A DNA stretch of 64,000 bases, from assembly GCA_030650995.1 (NCBI GenBank), contig JAUSCY010000086.1:1-64000 (forward strand). Reading direction: 5' to 3'. Of the stretch, positions 25,744 through 28,474 are shown piece by piece. Under the pieces are notes generated by a model. The model ran no database searches, was not told the DNA's origin, and saw only the letters and a list, made by a program, of their open reading frames with translations. The stretch is from Sheuella sp. (GTDB lineage: Bacteria; Pseudomonadota; Gammaproteobacteria; Burkholderiales; Burkholderiaceae_B). The first letter of the stretch is position 1. Each line of letters starts with the position of its first letter. Position numbers and translations under genes: made by a program.

Positions 25744-27582
25744 ATGTCTGAGCAGGATTCCAGTCGCAAGACTCTGTCGATCAAACCGCGCGCCAAAAAG
25801 GCTGCGGATCCATCGCCTCAAGAAAAACCCCGTACACGTATTGGTGCCCGGGCCCGTAAAGTCGCGCAGATCACCCACGAAAAAGTAAAAGTCGCGCGTC
25901 AAGCTGAAATTGACCAGCCGGAAGTCGCTGCGCCCCAACAGCCTGGTCATTACGATCAGGCCAGACGTGGCAGTAGCCGTGCGGGCAATCTGGGCGATTC
26001 CGGCGAGGGTCGACGTTCAATAGATGACCGGCGCCCTGCCAGCCCGAGAACGGGCAGCGATGATCCGCGCCGCACGACACGCCAACCCAGTGCGCGCGTA
26101 CCGTCATCAAAAGGTGTGCAATCCAAAAGCGCACGTCCATCCAGTGACGAGCGACGCGAGCACCGTGCACCCCGTCATGATCAGGCAAACTACGATCGTG
26201 CCCCGTATCAAGAGCAGCCCGCTCGCGAATTGCCCCGCCAGGAGCGCTCCAAGTTGCCGCCAGCGCCCCAGATGACGTCTTACGATGATGAGATCCCTGC
26301 TGCCAGCTGGGATGACATGTTCGAGGATGACGATAATGTGCAGAGTGCAGCGCCGGAGGCGACAGATTATTCGCAACAGCACGATGTATCGCCCAGTCCT
26401 CGTTCAAACTATTCAGGTGCACCACGGATCATTCACGATGCGGAAATCTTTGCGATTTTTGCACCCTGCCCGGTCGGTCTTGAGGAGGTTCTGGCTGCGG
26501 AACTCACTGCACTCGGTTATGACAGTGTCCAGCCTACCCGGGCAGGTTGCCATTTCGAAGCAGACTGGTGGGGCGTACAACGTGCAAACCTCTACTCCCG
26601 ATTAGCAACACGCATTCTGGTGCGACTCGGCCAGGCTCCTGTCCAGCGTGAAGACGACATCCTTGAGCTTGCTCAGTCCATCTCCTGGGAGCGGTGGTTC
26701 GGTCCGGAGCACACCCTACGTGTCGATACCTCTGCCGTGCGTAGCCCGATGCAGAGTTTGCAGTATTGCAATCTGCGCGCCAAAGATGGCATTTGTGACA
26801 GGCTGCGTGAGCTAGAGGGCGCGCGACCATCGATTGATACCGTGCGTCCCGATGCACGCGTGCATTTATTTCTGTCCGCTGACACGGCGACGCTTTACCT
26901 CGACACCTCCGGTGAGTCACTGTTTAAACGTGGCTGGCGTTTGGACAAAGGTGATGCGCCTTTGCGCGAAAACCTCGCGGCAGGCATCCTGGCACTGTCT
27001 GGCTGGGACCCTGCTGGCGCACTGATTGATCCTTTCTGTGGCAGCGGCACCATTCTGATCGAAGCCGCCTGGATTGCACTGGGTGTACCCCCAGGCATTA
27101 CCCGGCCCTTTGGATTTGAGAGGCTGCGTGACCATCAACCGCGTCGCTGGGAAGATCTCAAAGCAGAGGCTTCCTCGCGCATACTGCCTGGTCTGGAGGC
27201 GCCACTAGTCGGCATTGATGCGGACCCGCTGGCAATTGAAGCCGCGCAACGTAATGCAGAACGGGCATTCCTGACCGAAGACACGATTCATTTCGAACTT
27301 GGTGATGCACGCGATGCCGTCGCCCCTGCTCCAACTGGCTGGCTGGTCACTAACCCACCCTACGGCGAGAGACTGGAGGAGGAAGATCTGGAGTTCTGGC
27401 GGGAATGGTCTTCGAACCTTAAAAAGGAATTTGCAGGCTGGCAGGTAAACATCATTACCTCAGATCTGGATTTACCCAAGCATCTTCGCCTGAAAGCCAA
27501 TCGCCGCACGCCGATCTTTAACGGCGCACTGGATTGCCGACTTTTTAATTTTGAGCTTGTGGCGGACAGTTACCGTAGTTAA
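25744..27582 (+). CDS. THUMP-domain class I rRNA methyltransferase (RlmL-like) with a long disordered N-terminus
   Basis: A 612-residue SAM-dependent RNA methyltransferase related to the N-terminal m2G2445 half of RlmL. Residues ~1-225 are charged and low-complexity (Arg, Ser, Pro, Asp, Gln rich), with no folded-domain pattern. A THUMP domain begins at IFAIFAPCPVGLEEVLAAEL, followed by the Rossmann methyltransferase with LIDPFCGSGTILIEAAW, GIDADPLAIEAAQRNAER and the catalytic NPPYGERL. The C-terminal RlmK half found in E. coli is absent. An RNA-binding role for the extension is inference. It is probably co-transcribed with hemJ. Confidence 0.9.
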   Translation: MSEQDSSRKTLSIKPRAKKAADPSPQEKPRTRIGARARKVAQITHEKVKVARQAEIDQPEVAAPQQPGHYDQARRGSSRAGNLGDSGEGRRSIDDRRPASPRTGSDDPRRTTRQPSARVPSSKGVQSKSARPSSDERREHRAPRHDQANYDRAPYQEQPARELPRQERSKLPPAPQMTSYDDEIPAASWDDMFEDDDNVQSAAPEATDYSQQHDVSPSPRSNYSGAPRIIHDAEIFAIFAPCPVGLEEVLAAELTALGYDSVQPTRAGCHFEADWWGVQRANLYSRLATRILVRLGQAPVQREDDILELAQSISWERWFGPEHTLRVDTSAVRSPMQSLQYCNLRAKDGICDRLRELEGARPSIDTVRPDARVHLFLSADTATLYLDTSGESLFKRGWRLDKGDAPLRENLAAGILALSGWDPAGALIDPFCGSGTILIEAAWIALGVPPGITRPFGFERLRDHQPRRWEDLKAEASSRILPGLEAPLVGIDADPLAIEAAQRNAERAFLTEDTIHFELGDARDAVAPAPTGWLVTNPPYGERLEEEDLEFWREWSSNLKKEFAGWQVNIITSDLDLPKHLRLKANRRTPIFNGALDCRLFNFELVADSYRS

Positions 27583-27636
27583 GTGTGTTGCCGCAACGCA
27601 ACATTTGAACGATTTGATGATAATTTCTAACTTATT

Positions 27637-27700
27637 TAGGGTTATCCCTATGTTTGACTTGCGCGATAAAGGGTTTTCCCTAATAATAGGGTTATCCCTA
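27637..27700. promoter_or_regulatory. Array of three AGGGTTWTCCCT palindromes
   Basis: TAGGGTTATCCCTA occurs at 27637-27650 and again at 27687-27700, and the close variant AGGGTTTTCCCT lies at 27670-27681. Centres are 32 and 18 bp apart. All are near-perfect inverted repeats of GGG and CCC separated by four A/T bases. They occupy the ~80 bases upstream of the small-protein gene, so they are probably binding sites of a dimeric regulator. The regulator cannot be named from sequence. Confidence 0.7.
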
Positions 27701-27719
27701 ACCCGCACAGGAAATTACC

Positions 27720-27896
27720 ATGCAAATCAACAACACCAGCCGTTTGACCGACACTCTTGAACGTGAACTTCTCGCCCACGCGATGGAAGAACAGTTCCGC
27801 CCACATCCGATTCGCGCAGTCGGAAAGCTCTTTAACGGACTTATATCTTTTACAGCAACAGCCCGTGCAAAGACTAAAATGGGTCAAATGATCTAA
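27720..27896 (+). CDS. Unrecognised small protein, 58 residues
   Basis: A short open frame starting MQINNTSRLTDTLERELL and ending TAKTKMGQMI-like (exact end ARAKTKMGQMI). AGGA stands eight bases upstream of the ATG, a good ribosome site. The protein is basic and predicted helical: an amphipathic first half (LTDTLERELLAHAMEEQF), then HPIRAVGKLFNGLISF and a basic tail. There is no signal peptide or metal motif. It belongs to no family I recognise. Support comes from the ribosome site, the operator-like array directly upstream and the non-overlapping position between two genes. It might be a stress-induced small protein. Confidence 0.6.
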   Translation: MQINNTSRLTDTLERELLAHAMEEQFRPHPIRAVGKLFNGLISFTATARAKTKMGQMI

Positions 27897-27943
27897 ATAG
27901 TCGAGACTGGCGAGTGGTAGGTAAAGTGCGGGATAATACTCGC

Positions 27944-28474
27944 ATGAAATCATCCTCTGTGCCCATGAGCCCTTCTCTCTCAAACGTGCCCGCTGCTCCG
28001 CGGGCACGTCGCTTTGCTTCGATGATGTATGAGGGAGTCCTGCTATTTGCTGTGGTTTTTCTTGCAGACTACCTGTTTGACACACTGACTCAAAGCAAAC
28101 ACGCCCTGATGCTGCGTCACACCAGACAGATCTGGTTGTTTATAGCAATTGGCCTGTACTTTATTGCCTGCTGGATCCGCAGTGGCCAGACACTTCCTAT
28201 GAAAGCCTGGAATATCAGACTCATTGGCAAGGACGGCAAGCAGCCACGCATGCCACAACTACTATTACGCTACACACTGATGTGGGTACTCCCGCTATGT
28301 GGTGCCCTGTTGGTCTGGGGACTTTCATTGTTAACGCACTGGCCCTCTACCTTGATGTTTATCGTTCTGGCCCCCTTTACGATCTTTATTCCTACCTGGT
28401 TCACCCCTGAGCAGCAGTTTTTACACGATTTATTGTCTAGGACGCGTCTTGTGAATACTGGTAAAAACCCTTAA
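27944..28474 (+). CDS. RDD-family integral membrane protein
   Basis: A 176-residue RDD-domain protein. The family motif is APRARRFASMMYEGVLLFAVVFLADYLF, here with Arg-Arg-Phe-Ala in place of the canonical R-x-x-A-x-x-x-D run, followed by a second helix WLFIAIGLYFIACWIRSGQTLPMKAWNIRLIGKDGKQP, typical of RDD proteins. A further two helices close the domain. Function is unknown for most members; transport has been suggested for some. The start at 27944 is used; ATG at 27962 and GTG at 27914 are in-frame alternatives. A -10-like GATAAT lies at 27931-27936, which fits a separate promoter. Confidence 0.8.
   Translation: MKSSSVPMSPSLSNVPAAPRARRFASMMYEGVLLFAVVFLADYLFDTLTQSKHALMLRHTRQIWLFIAIGLYFIACWIRSGQTLPMKAWNIRLIGKDGKQPRMPQLLLRYTLMWVLPLCGALLVWGLSLLTHWPSTLMFIVLAPFTIFIPTWFTPEQQFLHDLLSRTRLVNTGKNP

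Follow-up and report, generated by a model that had tools for sequence, protein, structure and literature searches.

A gene of 58 codons in the window (the whole 64,000-nucleotide stretch that was analysed) probably forms a transcription unit of its own, at which a dimeric repressor bound to TAGGGTTWWCCCTA-type palindromes would occlude RNA polymerase, and sister genes would be under the same control. The three AGGG-N4-CCCT palindromes that lie ahead of this gene, between positions 27637 and 27700, had been noticed in a preliminary description of this DNA, and both their coordinates and the count of exact copies against shuffled sequence agree with it. The symmetry of the sites likewise supports its proposal of a dimeric regulator. 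That description contained neither the overlap of the sites with the promoter, which suggests repression, nor the design that the sister genes share.

The gene occupies positions 27720 to 27896 of the forward strand and starts with an ATG, from which a ribosome-binding site, AGGAA (27709 to 27713, forward strand), is well spaced. We call the proteins that share its motif, RLTDxLERxLxxxAxxxQFRxxP, family A. Of 268 genomes of the bacterial family, 170, from 29 of 43 genera, gave a relative in a protein search (E ≤ 0.01); the other 98 gave no match. When 300 genomes drawn from the order were searched with a profile, all 6 matches fell within the same bacterial family. By record title, carriers of the small genes include Zwartia, Pigmentiphaga and an assembly labelled Bordetella. 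Changes between the closest relatives are almost all silent, with 29.5 silent and 2.5 non-silent changes against L034, where dS is saturated. The ratio of non-silent to silent substitution (dN/dS) of the window gene, compared with eight relatives, ranged from 0.014 (against L035) to 0.28 in the six cases where it was computable, and the median was 0.156 over 114 pairs of the same genus whose dS lay between 0.05 and 1.5. The gene is genuine and under strong purifying selection. The preliminary description had held that a lack of conservation in relatives, or a dN/dS near neutral, would speak against a real gene, and on both counts its view was borne out.

The protein matches no known family, as had been supposed: for the window protein there was no match in Pfam, NCBIfam or PHROGs. 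Other single members gave weak profile matches only (best E 0.014), and one member matched NCBIfam RSP_7527 weakly (E 0.047). A PDB profile search returned only chance-level matches (E 0.19 and 0.31), and one family-A protein, searched against plasmids, had no match. The small-protein family is new, and none of the libraries searched holds a curated profile for it. Residues D11, L13, E14, R15 and P30 are invariant in 16 diverse members. AlphaFold predicts two helices, in a weak, low-confidence model (pLDDT 61.5, pTM 0.24). "Basic", the term used in the preliminary description, is too strong for a net charge of only +3, and the response to stress or to a signal that it also proposed is conjectural; amphipathicity is only moderate. 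The neighbours in the ORF list are one long ORF that we take to be methyltransferase-like and one RDD-family ORF, and no partner gene such as a type II toxin-antitoxin module would have was seen there. A strong, terminator-like hairpin (27984 to 28009, forward strand) lies 3' of the small gene, whose transcript may end there. It falls in the 5' portion of the ORF listed next, that of the RDD family, the true start of which may be later, at the ATG at 28023.

Comparison of the window with 72 other loci gave the anatomy of the promoter. A predicted -35 hexamer, TTGCGC, at 27659 to 27664, was placed from the sequence and by comparison with relatives, and a predicted -10 hexamer, AATAAT, 17 bp further on at 27682 to 27687, by comparison with relatives; both are on the forward strand. 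A strict sigma-70 consensus scan of the window did not call this promoter, because TTGCGC agrees with TTGACA over only half of its length. Where the window has AATAAT, the relatives have TATAAT or TAATAT, which makes the placement credible. Around these promoter-like hexamers the operators hold fixed places across the compared loci. The promoter looks strongly controlled, in keeping with the preliminary description. Operator 1, TAGGGTTATCCCTA (27637 to 27650), lies upstream of the -35 and ends 8 bp before it; operator 2, AAGGGTTTTCCCTA (AGGGTTTTCCCT; 27669 to 27682), fills the spacer and touches the -10; and operator 3, again TAGGGTTATCCCTA (27687 to 27700), is centred on the predicted transcription start at about 27694 (no strand is assigned to any of the three). 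Three such palindromes lie upstream in 26 of 29 same-genus loci, and a site at the place of operator 2 is also present in the promoters of family A and of family B, described below. As placed, the palindromes overlap the predicted core promoter upstream of the -35, in the spacer as far as the -10, and on the presumed +1, and the sites in the spacer and on +1 suggest repression through occlusion.

Exact AGGGTTWTCCCT has three copies in the window, all of them at this cluster, and none in any of 100 dinucleotide shuffles. With two mismatches allowed, TAGGGNNNNCCCTA is not enriched in the window (10 found against 11.3 expected), and the genome to which the window belongs has no excess of TAGGGTTWTCCCTA at two mismatches or fewer (16 forward matches where the control has 15, and 10 reverse where it has 20); five of its sites have at most one mismatch, and three of these are the cluster itself. 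Since loose matches are at chance level, the signal lies only in the near-perfect cluster. The genome-wide scatter of the loosely matched palindrome was dropped, its two-mismatch count not being above control, and later counts used only near-perfect or promoter-joined copies. The bias towards gene starts that the preliminary description expected of the palindrome is found when it is joined to a -10 box, but not when it is loosely matched.

Twin GGGTWWNCCC palindromes 5 to 24 bp apart were found in 190 of 268 genomes, and the reversed-pattern control was above zero in 10 of 268. The palindrome joined to a -10 (GGGTWWNCCCTATAAT) is present in 154 of the 268 family genomes and in 33 of 43 genera, against a single match for the reversed control. 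Its strict form is rare in the window's genus (3 of 32 genomes), and the window's own genome lacks this 16-mer because its -10 is AATAAT. Among 104 distinct GGGTWWNCCCTATAAT contexts, 88 have a TTG 16 to 18 bp before the TATAAT and 16 have none so placed; the -35/-10 spacer measures 17 or 18 bp in 86, and the -10 is near perfect. This TTG spacing is normal for sigma-70, and the operators therefore overlap the promoter.

Twenty GGGTWWNCCCTATAAT loci, the majority representing genera or sites new to the analysis, were fetched blind to what lies downstream. A short ORF of DxLER type, a motif defined post hoc once the ORFs behind these loci had been seen, follows in 15 of them; three of the other five have short ORFs that lack it, and the remaining two (L353, L355) look like chance. 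Of 4000 random positions, taken in 40 other loci, none has such an ORF behind it; it is present in 29 of 29 contexts of automatically fetched loci, all from one genus, and in 90 of 107 contexts over all loci, a set biased by the manner of its gathering. The products are of family A (58 to 64 residues, rarely shorter or longer), of family B (69 to 81 residues, with a C-terminus that is often SGSQW) or of a third, more divergent kind that begins MAN. Some genomes combine the three kinds under one design, for example G209 (L076, L154, L160) and G074 (L078, L105, L106). At the window locus, too, a spacer operator touches the -10 and a DxLER-type short ORF stands behind it, and by these features the window gene belongs to a set of small genes that extends through the bacterial family.

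A PhaR-like dyad, TTGCCGCAACGCAACAT, lies further upstream (27588 to 27604, forward strand). This putative binding site has two mismatches to the PhaR consensus published as YTKNTGCRNYGCANMAR (PMC12849132) and so falls within the limit of three that was set for PhaR sites. On a position weight matrix (PWM) trained on 24 phasin-promoter sites it scored 14.8 (p = 0.005 against shuffles), below all 24 of those sites (18.3 to 25.8). The main phasin promoters of 12 out of 12 family genomes carry two dyads each, with at most two mismatches to YTKNTGCRNYGCANMAR, one upstream of the -35 and the other 55 to 57 bp on; three secondary phasin-like genes have no PhaR dyads. Allowing up to two mismatches on either strand, TGTTGCNNYGCAACA was found in 29 of 67 family-A promoters, which are related rather than independent and in which the matches are not all at one place, against 9 of 1340 shuffles. 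By the PWM, 21 of 31 representatives, hand-chosen and including 8 from the window's genus, have a dyad at p < 0.05, and 16 of 31 at p < 0.01. The dyad ends 16 to 19 bp before the spacer operator in genera g6, g17, g30, g34, g35, g36 and Pigmentiphaga, and in the window's genus it is farther from the -35 than in most other dyad-bearing genera. The p value was 0.05 or more in all representatives of g9 (one), g33 (two) and g28 (one), in 4 of 5 of g8, and in 1 of 2 each of g2 and g10; G024 of g2 reached p 0.045, but with a 4-mismatch site, and G081 of g8 reached p 0.010, but with a site far upstream. PhaR itself (PF07879) is present in the window's own genome and in 245 of the 268 family genomes, so its co-occurrence with family A says little, and at least six family-A genomes, some of them incomplete, have no PhaR match (G034, G164, G174, G248, G259, G260). 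A PhaR input is likely in part of the bacterial family, and polyhydroxybutyrate status may be a second input to the small-gene promoters; the PhaR-like site offers a concrete first condition.

In the mechanism that we favour, the single gene of the transcription unit would encode a conserved small protein, and a dimeric repressor on the palindromes would keep the promoter down. One dimer would occupy the -35/-10 spacer as far as the -10 and another the start point, and RNA polymerase would be unable to bind or to leave. The third, upstream site found in the window's genus could add cooperativity. The same repressor would act on family A, family B and the divergent third kind, which would be switched on jointly, and where a PhaR-like site lies upstream of the -35, in part of the bacterial family, it would bring in polyhydroxybutyrate or carbon storage. 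The proposed regulon is defined from sequence alone, by one operator and one promoter geometry. The recurrence of this site-plus-promoter design across much of the bacterial family points to one control protein, and an operator of such specificity makes fishing for the regulator straightforward.

A response-regulator activator of the NarL/LuxR type, binding the palindromes to turn the genes on, is quite unlikely. The TAGGGTT/AACCCTA layout of 7+7 resembles the boxes of such regulators and is compatible with them, and operator 1, upstream of the -35 in the window's genus, stands at a place for activation. The common element, however, is the spacer site touching the -10, often accompanied by another on +1, and promoters with a near-perfect -10 and 17 to 18 bp spacing in 86 of 104 contexts would need little help. 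A palindrome in the spacer could also suit a MerR-type regulator that twists the promoter, but MerR promoters have spacers of 19 to 20 bp, against the 17 or 18 bp of those same 86 contexts, and there is often a further copy on +1. Both kinds of binding were ranked low on site position and spacing, the MerR type as extremely improbable. RNA hairpins acting in attenuation or processing, instead of DNA operators, might be considered, as TAGGGTTATCCCTA is able to form a short stem and the palindrome also occurs within the rRNA leaders described below. Yet a transcript from this promoter would contain neither operator 1 nor operator 2, since both precede the predicted start, and there was no Rfam match at 27400 to 28100; we regard this reading as very unlikely.

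It is rather doubtful that the small protein is itself a phasin-like or granule-associated polyhydroxybutyrate helper controlled by PhaR, with the palindromes as a second condition. Such a role would fit the dyad that lies upstream of the -35 in several genera, as it does in phasin promoters, and, weakly given its near ubiquity, the presence of PhaR in most family-A genomes. On the other hand, the small protein has no sequence match to phasins (no profile match to PF09361), its amphipathicity is only moderate, several genera lack the dyad, and the six or more family-A genomes without a PhaR match, incomplete as some are, also speak against it.

Several features of the small genes and of the mechanism that we prefer have parallels elsewhere. 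PhaR-controlled phasin promoters (phaP1 of Ralstonia eutropha and phaP of the bacterial family) have a repressor dyad just upstream of the -35, which they have in common with part of the small-gene family, and a further dyad at the transcription start, like the small-gene layout. They differ in that the spacer and +1 dyads of the small genes are GGG-N4-CCC, whereas the PhaR dyads are TGCRNYGCA; the 260 bp ahead of each of 15 phasin-like genes contain no GGG-N4-CCC dyad, and the small-gene product, unlike theirs, is not a phasin. Palindromes overlap the -35, -10 and +1 in promoters of the lac and tet type, and the window locus shares with these occluded promoters the overlap of palindromes with promoter elements. 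Very short proteins with several paralogs are also characteristic of DUF1127 of the alpha-proteobacteria, whose members are described as regulators (PMC12501420, PMC12218461). Unlike DUF1127, the small genes have another conserved motif and another promoter, and none of the proteins scanned gave a DUF1127 profile match. We know of no regulator to which the operator sequence corresponds. A full-text search with the operator core strings gave no bacterial regulator paper, by title, among the matches listed, and no paper on a GGG-N4-CCC operator or on the small-protein family was recognised in the literature, as judged from titles and the starts of abstracts. The promoter logic is known, then, the protein family is new, and for the operator we found no description.

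Single copies of AGGGTWWNCCCT number 8 to 22 per genome over both strands, against 1 to 6 for the control, in 12 genomes. From the matches listed, 40 stretches around single palindromes were fetched, and these also contain genes quite different from the small-gene set. In 9 of the 40 the palindrome stands at an rRNA-type promoter, 25 to 27 bp after TATAGT in G005, G088, G118 and G186. The 16S rRNA then follows in seven of the nine loci (L275, L287, L288, L290, L293, L295, L271), and the two of G186 (L283, L284) stop at contig ends. The rRNA-promoter palindrome occurs in three genera, probably four, and may serve as an operator or form a hairpin in the leader.

Looking at single operators near regulator genes did not reveal the regulator gene. 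LysR-type ORFs, recognised by reading and of uncertain orthology, stand beside a site in three genomes (L267, L272, L286); an FNR-like ORF stands beside a site in one genome (L282). In L275, L284, L290 and L295, from four genomes of as many genera, the rRNA operon that bears the palindrome has an Lrp/AsnC-type ORF upstream, and Pfam confirmed the identity of this ORF in three of the four loci. In the stretches examined, the five other palindrome-bearing rRNA loci have no such ORF, and the start regions of three of the Lrp/AsnC-type genes have no AT-centred GGG-N4-CCC site. This ORF may be a lead to the regulator, or may reflect mere conserved gene order. A global repressor that senses growth or carbon status, and acts at once on the small-protein paralogs, on porins, on a transporter of tricarboxylates and on the rRNA operons, is a tentative idea to which we give little credence; in at least three genera the leaders of these operons carry the palindrome 25 to 27 bp behind the -10 box of P1.

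Among the other single sites, the palindrome lies about 200 bp upstream of porin-like genes, which we take to be porins, in L281, L285 and L008 (the last on contig C36 of the window's own genome), from three genera. In two genera it lies upstream of genes that we assume to encode a TctB-like transporter, beside a presumed ZapA-like neighbour (L303, and L003 on contig C44 of the own genome). On the reverse strand of L278 and L280, from two genera, it stands between the -10 and the ribosome site of genes for similar 63-residue membrane-like proteins. Operator-bearing promoters also occur as close pairs in G227 (L177, L178) and G226 (L176), and the ORF beside one small gene of G227 is presumably Dps-like. 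A second palindrome pair, GGGTATTCCC-N7-GGGTATTCCC with no TATAAT between the copies, was seen in four genomes of the window's genus (L158, L159, G244, G245).
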